A stretch of DNA of 46,470 bases from IMG/VR virus record IMGVR_UViG_3300040809_000187, positions 1-46,470 of that record, one strand, 5' to 3'. A program made the translations under genes and the position numbers. The notes beneath the pieces were generated by a model. The model did no database searches. It saw only the letters and a list, made by a program, of their open reading frames with translations, and was not told where the DNA came from. Positions 17,470 to 24,911 of the stretch are shown here, piece after piece (within the stretch, counting starts at the first letter, position 1; every line of letters starts with the position of its first letter). This DNA is from a virus.

Positions 17470-19002
17470 CTAGAACGTACCGCCGTCTAGTGTTGCCCAA
17501 ACAGGCGTGCCGCTAGCATCTGCCATTAACAGTTGCCCTTCTGTGCCTGCTGCTGTTACTTGTAGAGCGCTAGTTCCGTTACCATAAACGATACCGTTTG
17601 AAGTAAAAGTGCTTGCGCCAGTACCACCGTCTGCAACACCAATCGCTGCTGATAGTCCAGAAATAGTTCCGCCTGTTACGTTGCCTTCAATGTTGGCAAC
17701 CAATGTTGCTACGGAATAGCCACTTGCTGTAGTGTCAACAGTTGTTGTAGGCTCAACGCTAGAGCCAGTAAACATTTTGTATTTACCGTCATTAGCATCT
17801 CTGAATAAACCAGAGTATTTGTCAGCGCCGTCGTTAAAGATACCATAAAAACCAATGTCTAAAGCGTCACTAGAGTTGCCAGTTGCTACTTTAAATAATG
17901 GATCATTAACTGTCAATGTCTGAGAGTTAACCTGTGTTGTAGTTCCAGAAACTGTTAAGTTACCAGATACAGTTAGGTTACCGCCAATTGTTGGGTTTGT
18001 TGCTAGTCCAACTTGAATTTGATTGTCTGATACGGTTGTTGTTACTTCGTTAGCTGTACCAGCAAAAGTAAGTGTTTCGCCACCAGCTACTGTATCATTT
18101 GTTCCACTGTCCGCTGCAATATCAAATGATGTTGCAATTGCTGCTGTAGTTGCAGCAGTGACCCTACCTTTAGCGTCTACTGTTAAAACAGGAACTGCTG
18201 TTGTAGAACCGTATGAACCTGCGGATACGCCTGAGTTAGAAAGATCAAGTGTTACACCTGCTGTTTCAGAACCTGAGCCAGTTACTGTAAGGTTGCCGCT
18301 TCCTGCGTCTGCTACTGTGGCAACATAGTTACCTGTAGTGTCTGTACCAAGTGCAATAGCGTCTGCTGCCATTGTAGTTGCAATACTTACATCGCCTGAA
18401 CCGTCAAAATTTACTGTACCTGTTACGTCACCTGTAAGAGCAATTGCTCTAGCTGTTGTTAGTGCCGCTGCTGTTGTTGCTGTATCTGCGTTACCTGTAA
18501 GGTCACCAGTTACATCACCTGTTACGTTACCTGTTACATTACCTGTAAGGTCACCAGTTACATCACCTGTTACGTTACCTGTTACTGCACCAGTGATATC
18601 GCCGGTTACATCGCCTGTTACGTCACCTGTGACATTACCCGTTACGTTACCAGTAAGGTCGCCTGTTACGTCACCTGTGACATCTCCGGTTAAATCTCCT
18701 GTTACGTTACCTGTAAGATCAGCTGTAATTGTTCCTGCAGAGAAATCTCCACTTGCGTCTCTCTTAACAAGCTGTGAAGCTGTGTTAGAAGAAGAGGCAC
18801 CGTCTACGATATCGGTGTAAAATTTACCACCGATTTTATGTACAACCTGTTGATTTGAGGAATCAACCGATTCAATATAAAGAATCGCGGAATCACCTGA
18901 GTTGGCTTTATCCTGGCTATACGCCAGTTCGCCTTCGTTTAGATCCGATGTTGTAGGGGCTGTAGCTGCGGTACTTCTTTTAATTTGAATTACTGTTGCC
19001 AT
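17470..19002 (-). CDS. Fibre-like structural protein with a T-G-D/N-V/L tetrapeptide repeat
   Basis: The 510-residue protein starts with TVIQIKRSTAATAPTTSDLN and GELAYSQDK, an N-terminal attachment motif common to fibre proteins of marine myoviruses. Residues about 95-170 are some 19 tetrads of the form T-G-[D/N]-[V/L/I]. The rest is Ser/Thr/Ala/Gly-rich beta repeat with GNLTVSGNLTVSGTTTQVNS, also found almost unchanged in the 654-residue protein (DLTVSGTTTTVNSETISL). It ends in TLDGGTF. Probably an exposed appendage. Confidence 0.82.
   Translation of the reverse strand: MATVIQIKRSTAATAPTTSDLNEGELAYSQDKANSGDSAILYIESVDSSNQQVVHKIGGKFYTDIVDGASSSNTASQLVKRDASGDFSAGTITADLTGNVTGDLTGDVTGDVTGDLTGNVTGNVTGDVTGDVTGDITGAVTGNVTGDVTGDLTGNVTGNVTGDVTGDLTGNADTATTAAALTTARAIALTGDVTGTVNFDGSGDVSIATTMAADAIALGTDTTGNYVATVADAGSGNLTVTGSGSETAGVTLDLSNSGVSAGSYGSTTAVPVLTVDAKGRVTAATTAAIATSFDIAADSGTNDTVAGGETLTFAGTANEVTTTVSDNQIQVGLATNPTIGGNLTVSGNLTVSGTTTQVNSQTLTVNDPLFKVATGNSSDALDIGFYGIFNDGADKYSGLFRDANDGKYKMFTGSSVEPTTTVDTTASGYSVATLVANIEGNVTGGTISGLSAAIGVADGGTGASTFTSNGIVYGNGTSALQVTAAGTEGQLLMADASGTPVWATLDGGTF
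18493..18720 (-). repeat. In-frame 12-bp tandem repeat coding T-G-[D/N]-[V/L]
   Basis: About 19 imperfect 12-base units (plus-strand forms such as cctgttacgtta and ccagttacatca) encode residues 95-170 of the 510-residue protein. The third codon positions vary while the amino acid pattern is kept, so the repeat is under selection as protein. Confidence 0.9.
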
Positions 19003-19665: not shown

Positions 19666-20316
19666 ATGAAAACAATTTTGACATTAAAATACGGGGACAA
19701 ATATACGTCTGAGGACGTTAATCGTATTTATAATTCTATTCCAGGTGACTACAACCGCGTCTGTGTAACTGATAATCCTATTGGACTCAATAAAAATATA
19801 ACAACAATACCTATAGATCATGAAATTGAAGGGCATTGGGAAAAGGTTAAACTGTTCAAACTTGAAAACTTAGGCAAAGTTCTTTATTTAGACTTAGATA
19901 TTAGAATACAAAAAGGTATAGAACATTTGTGGAAAATGCTTGACAAGAACCCCATCATATGTTACACTTACTGGAAACCTCAAGAATTCCCTTATCACAA
20001 AGACAGTAGGTGGTCATATAATTATTTAAGCAATTTTAATTCTAGTGTGATGATGTGGGAAGATAACAGACATATATATGATTACTGGGAAAAGAATAAA
20101 GATTACTATATGGTAAAGTATGCAGGTGATGATAGGTTTTTATACCATGAGAGTTTTACATTTGAACACTTTCCCGAAAATGAGGTTTATTCATTTTGGT
20201 TTGATGGTGGTAAAATAAAAGACGCAACAATAGCATTATTGAATGGACAAGAATCAGTTCAAGAGGACATAGCAAAAAGATATGATGAACTTCGTATGTA
20301 TCAAATGGGGAAGTAA
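19666..20316 (+). CDS. Glycosyltransferase (GT-A type), paralogue 1
   Basis: The 216-residue protein starts TILTLKYGDKYTSEDVNRIY and has a DxD-type metal-binding motif in VLYLDLDIRIQ (DLD at 76-78), as in nucleotide-sugar-dependent GT-A enzymes. The sequence YLSNFNSSVMMWED (about 120-133) matches N-S-S-V/M-M/L segments in the three related genes that follow. It is the shortest of the family and lacks the long insert before the DxD seen at 20282 and 22761. It opens the plus-strand cluster, with a sigma70-type promoter upstream and only a weak ribosome site. It overlaps the next gene by 35 bases. Confidence 0.82.
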   Translation: MKTILTLKYGDKYTSEDVNRIYNSIPGDYNRVCVTDNPIGLNKNITTIPIDHEIEGHWEKVKLFKLENLGKVLYLDLDIRIQKGIEHLWKMLDKNPIICYTYWKPQEFPYHKDSRWSYNYLSNFNSSVMMWEDNRHIYDYWEKNKDYYMVKYAGDDRFLYHESFTFEHFPENEVYSFWFDGGKIKDATIALLNGQESVQEDIAKRYDELRMYQMGK

Positions 20317-21064
20317 ATATTCTCCTGAATATGTAAACAATTTAAAGGCAATGGTTGAGAGACACTATACTCGACCCTGCACCTTTACCTGTTTTACAGA
20401 TGACGCAGAAGGACTCGATTGCGCCACCGCGCCTATCCCCAATATTGAGCCACTGCATCCAGACTATTGGTTTGGAAAGGAAAACTTTTGTTGGGATCGT
20501 GCTAAGTTCCTTGTATTCAACTCTCATAAGTGGCTAGGCTATGAGGGTAAATGGTGTTACTTTGATTTAGATGTTATTGTTCAAAACAATATAAACGATC
20601 TATACAATCTAGCAAACAAACCTAGAATAATCGAATCTAAATGGCAACCACCCGGACAACAACATGAGAGATTCTTTATTGATATTAGAGGAACTTATTT
20701 TAATTCTAGTATGATGTGTTGGAATGGGAGTCAATGTGAGAAAATTTACTACGATGTTCTAGAACACCAAGATGTAGTATTTAAAACATTCTTTAAAGGA
20801 TCAGATAACTACCATTACTGGAGACAAAAAAAGTTCTGGGGCAACATTCCTTGGGATTGGGTTTACTCTTATAATAGAGGAGCTCATCATAAAGAGGATA
20901 AAGAGAAGTATAAATATAGAGAGGAGTATAAAGTTTGTTTGTTTAATACAGACTTAACTCCAGACCCTGCAGCTAAGGCGCAGATTAAAATGAGTGAATT
21001 ACAAGATGAGAAACTTTTGAGGCATTGGCATGGAGCTAACTTTAATAGCAAACTTACTGGATAG
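20282..21064 (+). CDS. Glycosyltransferase (GT-A type), paralogue 2
   Basis: The 260-residue protein has the family pattern CIKWGSKYSPEYVNNL, FTDDAEGLD, WCYFDLDVIVQNN (DLD at 95-97), TYFNSSMMCWNG and a C-terminal WDWVYSYNRG with VCLFNTDL. It is closest to the 22761 gene: both have P-x-x-W-F-G-x-x-N-F and the C-terminal LLRHWHG or LLKHWQ. The frame can start at either of two adjacent ATGs (20282 or 20285). It overlaps both neighbours, so translation is probably coupled. Confidence 0.84.
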   Translation: MMNFVCIKWGSKYSPEYVNNLKAMVERHYTRPCTFTCFTDDAEGLDCATAPIPNIEPLHPDYWFGKENFCWDRAKFLVFNSHKWLGYEGKWCYFDLDVIVQNNINDLYNLANKPRIIESKWQPPGQQHERFFIDIRGTYFNSSMMCWNGSQCEKIYYDVLEHQDVVFKTFFKGSDNYHYWRQKKFWGNIPWDWVYSYNRGAHHKEDKEKYKYREEYKVCLFNTDLTPDPAAKAQIKMSELQDEKLLRHWHGANFNSKLTG

Positions 21065-22535
21065 TAAGTACAGTCAAATCCATATAAACAATTTCTATAC
21101 TCAGGCAAAGAACCTGATTGAGCAGCCTTTTGACTTCTTTGTTTTCACTACACAGGAAGAACTCGACAATATCAATAGCACTAAAAAGCGAGACGGCTTT
21201 GTAGACGGCATTCAATTCCATGTTCCAAAGTATGGAAAGCAGTGGTTAGAAATAGACTTAATACAACATACCAAGGATAATGGAGTTAGTCTTTTTACTA
21301 CTCCAAACGTCTTATTAAATGATCCTATGGCCCTTTTATCGTACAAAGGCAGTGGTATTGATAAAGTTTTAATGCAAGACGAAAATGTTACATATTATAT
21401 ACATAAGAACAAATATGTACAGAATCTGATACAAAAATGGGATAGAGACGAACAAGACATAACATTTTATAACTACGAATTCAAACAAGAGTTTCAAGTT
21501 AACGAACTACCATCACTTCCGTTTTTAAATACACAAAACAAAGACTATCCAATTAGTCTTACAGATGATATCGTTACCTTTCCTTATTGGTACACTCATA
21601 CTCTTGACAGCTACGTAGAAAACTGTTATAATAGGTCTATAGATTTGTATCCTTACTTGCCTTCTGAAATAGAAATGGAAGTAAATGGATTTAGCTATGA
21701 TGAGGTTGTTAGGATCTTTAATAAGGACTTTCTAGGAAAGTCTAGAATGACCAAGTTAATTTTATCCAATGACGTAGAAGAGCCAAGTTTATGTGAGGAC
21801 TTTTACGACATCTCTGAATACTTTCTAGAGTTTGAAGGTGTGAGTGTAGATGTATTAACAGACTTAACATCACATGATGAATTTTGGTGGGGTAGCACCG
21901 GGATACTATATAGAAAAATGGGTAACATCACTGCTACAATTGATGACATTAATAACAAAGACTTTGATAAACAAATTACAAATGCAAAGGCCTTGTTAAA
22001 GAGTGGAGCTCGTGTTTTTTGGCAATACACTAGAACCACACAATCTGATAATGACATTGAAGAGGCAAGAGCGTTATCCAAAAAACATAAATTCAGTGGC
22101 TTTACTTTTATTGAAAACAAGCCACCTGAACTACCAGTTAAAGAAGAAAGAATAATTGTTAAAGAACTTCCAGACTATAAGTTAATAGAACTTGATACTC
22201 TACAAACAAAACCTAAAGAGGCAGACTATGTAGATGTAAAAGTTAAATTTGAGAAGAAGGTTAGATGTAAATCTAAAATTGAGAATAAATGTTACATAGA
22301 CAAGCGAGGAAATGTTTTCCCGTGTGTTTACACTGCTAGAGAAATACTAGAAGCAGACATTAATCCTTATGAAGATACAGACATCATATATAATTGGAAG
22401 GCCAACAATTGTAAGTTAGAACCGCTAGAGTCTATTTTGACGAATGCTTTTTACACAGCATACTTCAATAATAAATTAAAACTAGACCCTAGCAACATTT
22501 GTAAACTAAAATGTGGAGCGTGCAAAAATGTATAA
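21030..22535 (+). CDS. Glycosyltransferase-like domain fused to a degenerate radical-SAM domain and SPASM-type C terminus
   Basis: This 501-residue protein joins two parts. Residues 1-195 resemble the neighbouring glycosyltransferases in outline (DSKYSQIHINNFY, then FDFFVFTTQEEL) but lack a DxD. Residues 220-365 follow the pattern of phage radical-SAM/SPASM proteins: MTKLILSNDVEEPSL (240-254), DLTSHDEFWWG, NITATIDDIN (299-308), ITNAKALLKSGARVFWQYTR (316-335), and EEARALSKKHKFSGFTF. The CxxxCxxC motif that should precede this is absent; only one Cys (199) is nearby. Cysteines of a SPASM-type end remain: 413, 421, 432, 461, 491, 495, 498, with CYIDKRGNVFPC. It is probably not a normal radical-SAM enzyme. 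GAGG precedes the ATG. Confidence 0.72.
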   Translation: MELTLIANLLDSKYSQIHINNFYTQAKNLIEQPFDFFVFTTQEELDNINSTKKRDGFVDGIQFHVPKYGKQWLEIDLIQHTKDNGVSLFTTPNVLLNDPMALLSYKGSGIDKVLMQDENVTYYIHKNKYVQNLIQKWDRDEQDITFYNYEFKQEFQVNELPSLPFLNTQNKDYPISLTDDIVTFPYWYTHTLDSYVENCYNRSIDLYPYLPSEIEMEVNGFSYDEVVRIFNKDFLGKSRMTKLILSNDVEEPSLCEDFYDISEYFLEFEGVSVDVLTDLTSHDEFWWGSTGILYRKMGNITATIDDINNKDFDKQITNAKALLKSGARVFWQYTRTTQSDNDIEEARALSKKHKFSGFTFIENKPPELPVKEERIIVKELPDYKLIELDTLQTKPKEADYVDVKVKFEKKVRCKSKIENKCYIDKRGNVFPCVYTAREILEADINPYEDTDIIYNWKANNCKLEPLESILTNAFYTAYFNNKLKLDPSNICKLKCGACKNV

Positions 22536-22764
22536 ATCAACAAGGAAAGCGGATGCGTATTTTGGATCCTTTGATACTTGGGATAAAAAAGATACGGACG
22601 ATGTAATCGACTCTGTTAGAAACGGCAAGTTTGTTTCTATTGTCGTTCATTGTAATAAAAATCAATTTGAGGAAAAGACAAAGGATATTGTTTCTGAGCT
22701 AGTTAACTATAGCTTGATGTATGGTAGAGATTTTGTCATTCAACACGTCGTGGAAGAACTATGA
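22528..22764 (+). CDS. Unrecognised protein of 78 residues between glycosyltransferase genes
   Basis: The ATG at 22528 has GGAG nine bases ahead, within the end of the upstream gene; the open frame also reaches a GTG at 22513. The product includes DAYFGSFDTWDKKDTDDVID, KFVSIVVHCNKNQF and a C-terminal YGRDFVIQHVVEEL. A helix-strand-helix-strand pattern suggests a compact alpha/beta fold, but no family is recognised. It overlaps the fusion protein gene by 8 bases and the next glycosyltransferase by 4, so it belongs to the same operon and may serve one of those proteins. Confidence 0.65.
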   Translation: MYKSTRKADAYFGSFDTWDKKDTDDVIDSVRNGKFVSIVVHCNKNQFEEKTKDIVSELVNYSLMYGRDFVIQHVVEEL

Positions 22765-23573
22765 GGGTAAATATAGTCTGCTCTAAATGGGGCTCAAAGT
22801 ATGGGCCTCATTTTGTTAATCGTTTGTATAACATGACGAAACGGCATGTCGACAAAAAACACGACTTTCATTTTTATTGTTATACCGACGATGCAGAAGG
22901 ACTTTTAGATGATATTAAAGTTATTGATTTTCCTGATATTCCCAATATCCATCCTAAGTATTGGTTTGGTGGCGACAACTTCAAGTACGGCATGGCAAGA
23001 TGTTGGGATAGACCCAAGACGTTTGTATTCAATACTCATAATTTTGCAGACGATAAACCTACTGGCCGCTTTATTTTCTTTGACTTGGATGTCATCATTC
23101 AACGTGATTTAGAACCTATCATTACTTACAACATGGAGCGTCCTACAAAGATGCGTTCATGGTGGCAAGATCCCCGCCCAATGAAAACACGAAGATTCAA
23201 ACTTTCACACGGCGCATACACAAACGGGTCCTGTCAAGTTTGGAGCGATGATCAATGTGAGATTATTTGGAACGATGTATTAGAGAATCAAGAAAAGATA
23301 TGGTTCACTTATACCGACGGAACAGATAACTATCACAGTTGGAAATGGGGCATCTATGGTGAAAACCTGTGGGACTACTTCCCATCTGAATACGCCTATT
23401 CGTATAACAGAGGTAGAGATTGGGACAGTGGTGATATGGATGTCGGAGTTTATAGAGAAGGTTGTATTGTTTGCGTGTTTAATGTAGACTTACTACCATT
23501 TGAGGATAAGAGTAGAGGACACACCAAACAAGATGAGTTGGTAGATCCTAAACTATTAAAGCATTGGCAATGA
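22761..23573 (+). CDS. Glycosyltransferase (GT-A type), paralogue 3
   Basis: The 270-residue protein has CSKWGSKYGPHFVNRLYNMT, CYTDDAEGLLDD, KYWFGGDNF, FIFFDLDVIIQRDL (DLD at 108-110), TNGSCQVWSD and YAYSYNRGRDW with CVFNVDLLPF. It is clearly a duplicate of the 20282 gene with the same layout. It overlaps the 78-residue gene by four bases (ATGA) and the next glycosyltransferase by four. Confidence 0.85.
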   Translation: MRVNIVCSKWGSKYGPHFVNRLYNMTKRHVDKKHDFHFYCYTDDAEGLLDDIKVIDFPDIPNIHPKYWFGGDNFKYGMARCWDRPKTFVFNTHNFADDKPTGRFIFFDLDVIIQRDLEPIITYNMERPTKMRSWWQDPRPMKTRRFKLSHGAYTNGSCQVWSDDQCEIIWNDVLENQEKIWFTYTDGTDNYHSWKWGIYGENLWDYFPSEYAYSYNRGRDWDSGDMDVGVYREGCIVCVFNVDLLPFEDKSRGHTKQDELVDPKLLKHWQ

Positions 23574-24253
23574 TAAACATTTATACCGTGAAGTGGGGAA
23601 ACAAGTATTCCCACAAGCACGTTCAAGCAATTTACGAATCCTGTGTTAAGAACATTAGCTCAGAGTTTAAGTTCTTTTGTTTAACAGAAGACCCTAGAGG
23701 ATTGTCTGAAGATATAAATGTTATTCCACTACCTAAAAATAATAACTTAGAAAAGTGGTGGAATAAAATGTACTTGTTTGATGATAATGTAGTTCGTCAA
23801 AAGGGCGAGAAAATGTTTTTCGACTTAGATGTTATCATTCAAAGAAACTTAGACGAATGGGTTGAGTTTGATCCTGAGGATTGTTTGTGTTTCATTAAGA
23901 CACACTGGCATGATATGGAAACTCAATATAAAGATACAAGACACATTCCACATAAGTATACTGACTTGAACTCGTCAGTTTTAAGATGGAATGATAATTT
24001 AAATACCGAAGATATTACTTTATATCTTAACAAGCATCTAAAACAGATACTTTGGTATTACAGGGGAATAGATAATTTCTTCGGACACCGCGGTGTTGCT
24101 AGGATTAAATATTTTCCAATTGGGTGGGCGTACAGTTATAACCAAGGTTATATTTGGCCCCATGATACAGAAAAACAAGTCTATAGACAAATGCCTTACG
24201 TTTGTTTATTTGATTCAATGGGAAGGAAAGAAGATGTCAAATTTGAACTATAA
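23570..24253 (+). CDS. Glycosyltransferase (GT-A type), paralogue 4
   Basis: From the ATG at 23570, which shares ATGA with the upstream stop, the product is 227 residues. It has YTVKWGNKYSHKHVQAIY, FCLTEDPRGLSED, MFFDLDVIIQRNLD (DLD at 85-87), LNSSVLRWND and WAYSYNQGYIWP. A frame that starts two codons earlier at a TTG is unlikely. It is the fourth member of the tandem family and overlaps the methyltransferase gene by 20 bases. Confidence 0.84.
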   Translation: MINIYTVKWGNKYSHKHVQAIYESCVKNISSEFKFFCLTEDPRGLSEDINVIPLPKNNNLEKWWNKMYLFDDNVVRQKGEKMFFDLDVIIQRNLDEWVEFDPEDCLCFIKTHWHDMETQYKDTRHIPHKYTDLNSSVLRWNDNLNTEDITLYLNKHLKQILWYYRGIDNFFGHRGVARIKYFPIGWAYSYNQGYIWPHDTEKQVYRQMPYVCLFDSMGRKEDVKFEL

Positions 24254-24911
24254 TTTTTTAAACAGTCTCCAACACTGGGGCGATGGACTAGCTAAAGTCG
24301 AACATGAAATGAAGCATAAACATGAGGACTTTAGACAGGCTCTCAATCCGAATACTATGGAAGCAGGTATTTGGATGGTGGAAGAACTAAAGAAAGTTCT
24401 AGAAGAACACTATATGAAAGAAGAAGGATTGAATATTCTTGTTCTAAATTCTTGGTTAGGTATTCCTTTAGTGCCTCTGCTTTGTGAAAACTTATCTGTA
24501 GGGCAACTACACTTGGTCGATATTGATCCTGAGGCTTTAGAGTTATCTAAAGTTTTTAATGGGCATTATATTAAAGAAGAGTTCATTAAGATTAATCACT
24601 GGAACTTAGATGTTCCTTTTGCGTTTGACGAACTTAATCAGATGAATGTAGATGTTGTTATATCTTTAGGGTGCGAACAGATGTATCCGTTACAAGATCT
24701 TTATACTGCTAACAAGCATGCAATATTTGCTTGTCAGTCTTCTAACGTAATGGAAGAAATGTACGGCATTAATTGTGTTGATAGCGAACTTGCGCTAATA
24801 GAAAATATAGGATTAAAGGACACTTATTATAGTGGCAAGACAATTCAATATTATTATTCGTGGGACGGTAAAAAGTTTTACGATAGATTTATGGCTATTG
24901 GTAAGAAGTAG
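24234..24911 (+). CDS. SAM-dependent methyltransferase-like protein
   Basis: The open frame extends upstream, but the ATG at 24234 has a GGAAAG site and gives 225 residues without a long overlap. It has a class I methyltransferase-like nucleotide fold: NILVLNSWLGIPLVPLL (67-83) in place of the usual motif I, LHLVDIDPEALELSK (92-106) with the acidic residue that would hold the SAM ribose, and VDVVISLGCEQM for the next strand. Motif I (LNSWLG rather than D/E-x-G-x-G) is unusual, so activity is uncertain. It ends the plus-strand cluster and overlaps the converging gene by 17 bases. Confidence 0.68.
   Translation: MSNLNYNFLNSLQHWGDGLAKVEHEMKHKHEDFRQALNPNTMEAGIWMVEELKKVLEEHYMKEEGLNILVLNSWLGIPLVPLLCENLSVGQLHLVDIDPEALELSKVFNGHYIKEEFIKINHWNLDVPFAFDELNQMNVDVVISLGCEQMYPLQDLYTANKHAIFACQSSNVMEEMYGINCVDSELALIENIGLKDTYYSGKTIQYYYSWDGKKFYDRFMAIGKK

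Follow-up and report, generated by a model that had tools for sequence, protein, structure and literature searches.

We report a viral protein that joins two degenerate enzymes in a single polypeptide: a glycosyltransferase (GT) domain of the GT-A fold with TPN in place of the DxD motif, followed by a radical-SAM barrel without the CxxxCxxC loop and a SPASM/Twitch-like domain. The assignment of this doubly degenerate fusion is well supported. The protein is encoded in the window, a stretch of 46,470 nucleotides from an IMG/VR virus record, by an ORF at positions 21030-22535 of the plus strand, which starts with ATG, contains no internal stops and has the unbroken frame of 501 codons given in the preliminary description; the reading frame extends just three codons 5' of the ATG (open frame of 504 aa). 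Conservation is given over an alignment of 54 rows, comprising the window protein and 53 of the 68 distinct window-type ORFs (those of at least 470 aa). The gene and its parts are as follows.

21030..22535, plus strand: pseudo-GT / pseudo-radical-SAM / SPASM-like fusion protein, 501 aa (ORF, fold, structure comparison)
21030..21644, plus strand: residues 1-205, GT-A (GT8-like) domain without DxD (VIA, hhalign)
21300..21308, plus strand: residues 91-93, TPN at the DxD place (54 of 54 rows; hhalign)
21645..22118, plus strand: residues 206-363, radical-SAM barrel of six strands, lacking the SAM-cluster loop (model, VIA)
21681..21695, plus strand: residues 218-222, loop following barrel strand 1, shortened; CxxxCxxC stands here in relatives (model, profile alignment)
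22119..22244, plus strand: residues 364-405, low-confidence linker with the invariant PDYxLI motif (model, 54-row alignment)
22245..22532, plus strand: residues 406-501, SPASM/Twitch-like domain, C413-x13-G427-x4-C432 ... C491-x3-C495-x2-C498 (PF13186, Cys pattern)

Structural genes in the window have matches among the head, tail and connector families of PHROG, and the closest counterparts of its tail sheath are those of Stenotrophomonas phage DLP_6 (55.5%) and Pelagibacter phage HTVC008M (53.6%). These matches identify the window as part of a T4-like phage genome, and relatives such as HTVC008M suggest a marine origin. Identical or 99% copies of the fusion gene are found in five IMG/VR records, two of which are fragments starting within the gene; the protein of locus L001 is identical to the window protein, and that of L004 is a 99% copy. 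A tblastn search of 50,697 phage records gave no match for the window protein, for the L060 protein of the majority clade or for the neighbouring glycosyltransferase GTc, and the fused form of locus L085, from a sister lineage, matched five of these records through its GT half only. The profile of a 20-row family alignment (the window protein and 19 relatives) had no match among PDB sequences, and a scan of genome contigs with it returned one locus, L231; the 12-kb contig that bears it belongs to a Flavobacteriales MAG, and we would guess that it is binned phage DNA.

Fold and homology of the three domains

The AlphaFold model of the window protein was built from the alignment with the 19 relatives, the rows of which end short of the last codon (pLDDT 72, pTM 0.48; low-confidence stretches at 200-208, 364-417, 443-452 and 481-501). 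In the model, strands at 213-217, 242-246, 272-277, 298-303, 328-335 and 357-362 follow the element order of the six-strand beta/alpha barrel of radical-SAM enzymes. The best 34 VIA rows for this predicted model were all radical-SAM enzymes (Z 12.6-17.6), as for a partial (beta/alpha)6 barrel, with PqqE at Z 17.6 (rmsd 2.6, 213 aligned, residues 206-486), SuiB at 17.5, SkfB at 15.8 and MoaA at 14.3 in VIA-align. The top Foldseek row was SuiB (E 6.7e-7), and the glycosyltransferase GlyE (E 8.4e-7) stood with it among the top rows; whole-chain TM-scores were 0.37 or less and rmsd 15-19 for the best rows, the scores being low because the domains are mixed. In the viral library an MptE-like phage protein came best, and most of the rows after it were glycosyltransferases and SPASM or radical-SAM proteins. 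Foldseek and VIA together thus give a GT-A fold, then a radical-SAM barrel, then a SPASM-like part, the order anticipated in the preliminary description.

Sequence relatives of the barrel were obtained by running the family profile on 14 stretches from 8 virus records selected for radical-SAM matches. Two were found: L180 (388 aa, CNAECLFC, iE 1.7e-16, record G004) and L181 (433 aa, CNSICPNC, 1.8e-10, record G005), and each of these records also encodes a member of the fusion family. Viral contigs scanned with the two proteins yielded 39 loci with 46 distinct related ORFs. A 41-row radical-SAM/SPASM profile, made from those ORFs of at least 300 aa and the two starting sequences (two rows are repeats) and with CxxxCxxC in every row, matched the window protein over residues 216-497 with 64 bits, close to the residues 220-500 for which such a match had been predicted. 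At E<1e-3 the same profile matched 119 of 120 window-type ORFs and 28 of 31 fused-form ORFs, and it reported none of 2080 shuffled family sequences. In hhalign the family profile aligned to this viral profile with E 4.6e-26 (probability 99.7), the pseudo-GT half with a probability of 0.3. The match begins at model position 46, past CxxxCxxC, so that the missing piece is the cluster loop, from strand 1 to the next helix. The segments quoted earlier as the core pattern of radical-SAM/SPASM proteins are present, and the profile and structure comparisons show that the resemblance exceeds chance. In scans with general families, PF04055 had no match in the window protein and scored 16.6 and 15.3 bits in two of nine relatives (cut-off 29.5), NCBIfam gave weak matches among 20 family members (best TIGR04317, 2.1e-5 in 2 members; unrelated families too), and the Pfam scan of the window protein returned two extra, chance-like matches.

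Nine radical-SAM ORFs were counted in G005 (8 above the Pfam cut-off) and seven in G008, and the L181 locus (G005:C1:11500-20500), on a 170-kb virus record, has five consecutive CxxxCxxC ORFs. The 80-kb record G001, which shares the 11.5 kb surrounding the gene, has a second sugar-type cluster at locus L187 (C1:1-19900). It comprises two radical-SAM ORFs (CNFKCGYC above and CNFKCSYC below the Pfam cut-off), a carbamoyltransferase, NAD-dependent epimerases and an ORF that looks desaturase-like by eye; the stretch also includes gp32.

The fusion gene is flanked by further glycosyltransferase genes.

19666..20316, plus strand: GTa, GT8-like, with DLD (Pfam/PHROG, alignment)
20282..21064, plus strand: GTb, glycosyltransferase with DLD; the N-terminal part of the fused form is its homologue (ORF, alignment)
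22513..22764, plus strand: 83-aa ORF, labelled in part of the related loci only (locus comparison)
22761..23573, plus strand: GTc, with DLD, paralogue of GTb (locus comparison, alignment)
23564..24253, plus strand: GTd, with DLD, phrog_1962 (PHROG, alignment)
24093..24911, plus strand: last operon gene, methyltransferase-like by eye only, start uncertain (no convincing Pfam/PHROG match)

Over residues 1-206 the model was matched by VIA to the GT8 protein 3tzt (Z 10.4, rmsd 5.4, 192 aligned) and to LgtC (Z 9.3). Pfam and PHROG gave no glycosyltransferase match for the window protein, and when the pseudo-GT part was compared by hhalign with each of the four neighbouring families, E was 0.017, 4.9e-4, 0.0012 and 3.1e-5, the last with GTd (probability 73) and the other three weaker; the GT call therefore draws mainly on the fold. 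The claimed resemblance of the N-terminal part to the neighbouring glycosyltransferases thus holds as a GT-A fold and is weak by sequence. In the alignment with GTa, TPN stands opposite DLD, and in that with GTd the alignment at this place is shifted by one. TPN occupies the DxD place in all 54 rows, with no acidic residue at the aligned position, which bears out the earlier statement that DxD is missing.

In the C-terminal region, the PF13186 score of the window protein is 18.3 bits (cut-off 21.5) and that of the same protein in the sister records G001-G003 is 21.7 bits. All seven cysteines counted there previously are present (413, 421, 432, 461, 491, 495 and 498). The pattern CX9-15GX4C is part of the SPASM motif (PMC6231123), and it is found in the window protein as C413-x13-G427-x4-C432. 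The full seven-Cys motif is not: the downstream CX2CX5CX3C-gap-C is absent, and C491-x3-C495-x2-C498 alone is seen. The four Cys of one auxiliary (Twitch) cluster could be drawn from five candidates, the last three unusually spaced. As far as the residues tell, the window protein keeps enough Cys for a putative auxiliary Fe-S site and so need not be free of iron-sulphur. Its sole CxxxCxxC, CKLKCGAC at residues 491-498, lies at the extreme C terminus, away from the barrel, which itself has none, as had been stated for the SAM-cluster motif.

Conservation of the motif losses and variation of the putative metal site

Neither loss is peculiar to the window. CxxxCxxC outside the last 40 residues was found in 0 of 54 full-length rows, so no homologue in this set has it at the aligned place, and both motifs are missing from all 54 rows, which makes the losses a family trait and not a local error. 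The neighbouring GT families have DLD or DID in 276 of 278 rows, the other two being gaps (GTa, DLD 64/64; GTb, 71/73 with 2 gaps; GTc, 79/79; GTd, 58 DLD and 4 DID of 62). Across the 54 rows, 81 of 501 positions are invariant, among them T91, P92, N93, V65, P66, G69, W72, E74, I75 and D76; the three TPN positions are encoded by 4, 3 and 2 different codons. The linker, with pLDDT under 50 over 364-417, has invariant P381, D382, Y383, L385 and I386.

The median dN/dS of the family is 0.20 over 272 pairs of whole ORFs within 0.15<dS<1.2. This low ratio, the selection measure proposed in the preliminary description, indicates purifying selection on the fusion family; the medians of the neighbours are 0.135 (GTa), 0.167 (GTb), 0.084 (GTc) and 0.110 (GTd). 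By region the medians are 0.125 for the pseudo-GT part, 0.182 for the barrel and 0.117 for SPASM (24 pairs each) and 0.081 for the linker (22 pairs); here the dS limits leave 24 of 190 pairs, the rows of the 19 relatives stop before the last codon, and none of the 24 pairs includes the window protein. The latter was directly compared only with L004 (9 synonymous and 3 non-synonymous codon differences) and L005 (6 and 0). Relatives with the same architecture are found at about 40-64% identity. A local sequencing error or pseudogene was rejected on the intact family ORFs, the low dN/dS and the repeated records.

The cysteines of the C-terminal domain are retained unevenly, C413 in 54, C432 in 48 and C498 in 53 of the 54 rows. 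In a majority clade of 48 rows, position 491 is His in 47 and Trp in one, position 495 is Gly, Glu or Asp instead of Cys, and His is found at 410 (48 rows), 434 (44) and 448 (48). Across the entire protein, just five columns show His in at least 40 rows, and 410, 434, 448 and 491 are four of these. These substitutions suggest a remodelled Cys/His zinc-like site in the majority clade. Position 432 is Ser in five rows and Phe in one, which weakens a strict ligand role of Cys432, and His448 may be ancestral, since the invariant His682 of the fused form aligns with it by eye.

Operon context and proposed role of the fusion protein

The gene order GTa, GTb, fusion gene, (83-aa ORF), GTc, GTd and methyltransferase-like gene is recurrent, with minus-strand genes on the flanks; in the window GTb and the fusion gene overlap by 35 bases. 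Loci were fetched with GTc or with the fusion protein, so the respective query gene is present there by construction. The fetch with the fusion protein added 66 new loci; of these, all 61 with an upstream flank of more than 1 kb have GTb there, and all 49 with more than 2 kb downstream have GTc on that side. Beside the operon, at 17470-19002 on the minus strand, lies a structural-type, N-x-T-rich protein with GNVTGDVTGD repeats; a GNVTGD-repeat ORF was seen in 23 loci when the ORFs of 153 loci, many lacking that flank, were scanned. That this protein might be a glycosylation target, or virion glycosylation the purpose of the operon, is offered as a lead only.

In a second lineage one ORF, of 466-916 aa where complete, fills the slot of GTb and the fusion gene. 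This fused form consists of GTb with DLD, a shortened barrel remnant and the SPASM domain, in which five Cys are invariant in 17 of 17 rows. A long extra stretch, predicted helical, is present in 15 of the 17 aligned rows; the predicted model is poor (pLDDT 58), and at the pseudo-GT place there is either a helical region of low confidence or nothing. In the alignment of the fused form, rows of which stop before the last codon, a conserved segment (L044 residues 513-523), with invariant N513, D514, T515, N520 and F523, stands at the place of the cluster loop, and on a 4.3-kb contig the fused gene is apparently split into two ORFs (L056:2278-2937). A quick, midpoint-rooted tree of 72 distinct GTc rows, with SH-aLRT support only, separates three groups, each lying to one side of a branch: fused rows (23; support 97), split rows that lack the C-terminal Cys motif (45; support 99) and split rows that have it (4, the group of the window; support 61). 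This implies two changes in all; the Cys-bearing group was delimited by a motif rule under which L016, a row lacking the third Cys, is included as well.

We propose that the fusion protein is a non-catalytic partner of the adjacent GTb (20282-21064), and give this reading slightly better than even odds (roughly 0.55). In this reading the inactive GT domain would bind to the active GTs or form a pair with them. The barrel/SPASM part, presumably derived from an enzyme family related to peptide maturases, would keep the acceptor or carrier in place so that the operon GTs can assemble a short glycan, and any metal or cluster in the SPASM-like site would serve a structural purpose, not catalysis. 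GTb is named mainly because of its fusion in the sister lineage; the cassette genes all travel together, so that co-occurrence alone cannot single it out. The idea of a binding scaffold, raised in the preliminary description, would thereby gain a candidate partner. Against the partner reading stand the GT homology, clear by fold and weak by sequence, the high VIA rmsd (5.4), the mixing of domains in the whole-chain Foldseek alignments, and the helical region or gap that the fused form shows at the place of the pseudo-GT domain.

GT-A enzymes that are active without DxD and metal exist, so the TPN domain could be active. The N-terminal domain would then be a working metal-independent GT, in which TPN and the conserved HVPKYG..W.EID patch replace DxD, and the radical-SAM/SPASM part would recognise the acceptor. 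Such an enzyme would be consistent with the GT-A fold retained in the model, with the invariance of TPN, V65, P66, G69, W72, E74, I75 and D76 in 54 rows, and with synonymous codon variation at the inspected invariant positions that have synonymous codons; however, the aligned DxD place is without an acidic residue and the 276 of 278 neighbouring rows with DLD or DID supply the operon with DxD GTs without the fusion protein, and we regard this alternative as unlikely. A metal or redox protein, sensing or delivering metal or electrons through an auxiliary Fe-S site in the window clade or a Cys/His zinc-like site in the majority, appears rather improbable. While C413, C432, C491, C495 and C498 of the window protein, the five invariant Cys of the 17 fused-form rows and the majority-clade His at 410, 434, 448 and 491 beside retained Cys all speak for it, the ligand set differs between clades, Cys432 is missing in 6 of 54 rows, a redox role would need a stable cluster, and the above-cut-off radical-SAM matches in those virus records sit away from the fusion gene. 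The absence of catalytic motifs from both halves would also agree with a decaying gene, or with an assembly error that joined two genes and excised the cluster motif, but the ORF is intact in 54 full-length rows, dN/dS is low, the same sequence occurs in several metagenome records and the same architecture in relatives at about 40-64% identity, and the chance of such an artefact or decay is very small.

The partner reading can be extended, tentatively and with odds below even, to an evolutionary scenario. A phage lineage may have made a non-catalytic GT subunit from two enzymes; the majority clade would have swapped Fe-S for a Cys/His zinc-like site (H410-x2-C413 ... C432-x-H434, H448, H491, C498), perhaps for iron-poor ocean water, and the sister lineage would have reached the same end by joining the SPASM remnant directly to the active GT.

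Comparison with known systems

The component parts are of known kinds, and their doubly degenerate fusion seems new, as it was not found in the open-licence literature searched; neither was any paper on degenerate or SPASM-only radical-SAM proteins (pseudoenzyme papers were judged by title). If the assignment is true, a conserved viral protein has been assembled from two inactivated enzymes of unrelated superfamilies, with a graded loss kept in its relatives: loop gone and barrel kept, barrel truncated and SPASM Cys kept, SPASM Cys partly His. Repurposing of radical-SAM/SPASM enzymes as binding modules, with a possible iron-sulphur to zinc conversion, would be directly testable, and multi-component glycan assembly in T4-like phages is pointed to. 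In pelagimyophages, T4-like phages of SAR11, a variable region for host recognition contains radical-SAM cassettes and several GT8 genes, and the GTs were suggested to alter the host O-chain (PMC7029224); in the parts of that account considered here, neither a GT/radical-SAM fusion nor loss of catalytic motifs is described.

The barrel and C-terminal SPASM-like part superpose with the radical-SAM/SPASM (Twitch) peptide maturases PqqE, SuiB and SkfB. Unlike these, the fusion protein is without CxxxCxxC, has an N-terminal GT-A fold instead of the peptide-binding RRE, and its downstream cysteines are spaced CX3CX2C. The nearest sequence relatives found for residues 216-497 are the viral radical-SAM/SPASM enzymes (L180, L181 and relatives), which have CxxxCxxC in 46 of 46 distinct ORFs listed and the profile consensus of which also keeps the GDP, TNG and DGL segments. 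Residues 1-206 share the fold of GT8-type GT-A enzymes (3tzt, LgtC, GlyE and the phage family PHROG 1962, which the neighbours GTa and GTd match), whereas the place of their DxD is taken in the fusion protein by an invariant TPN.
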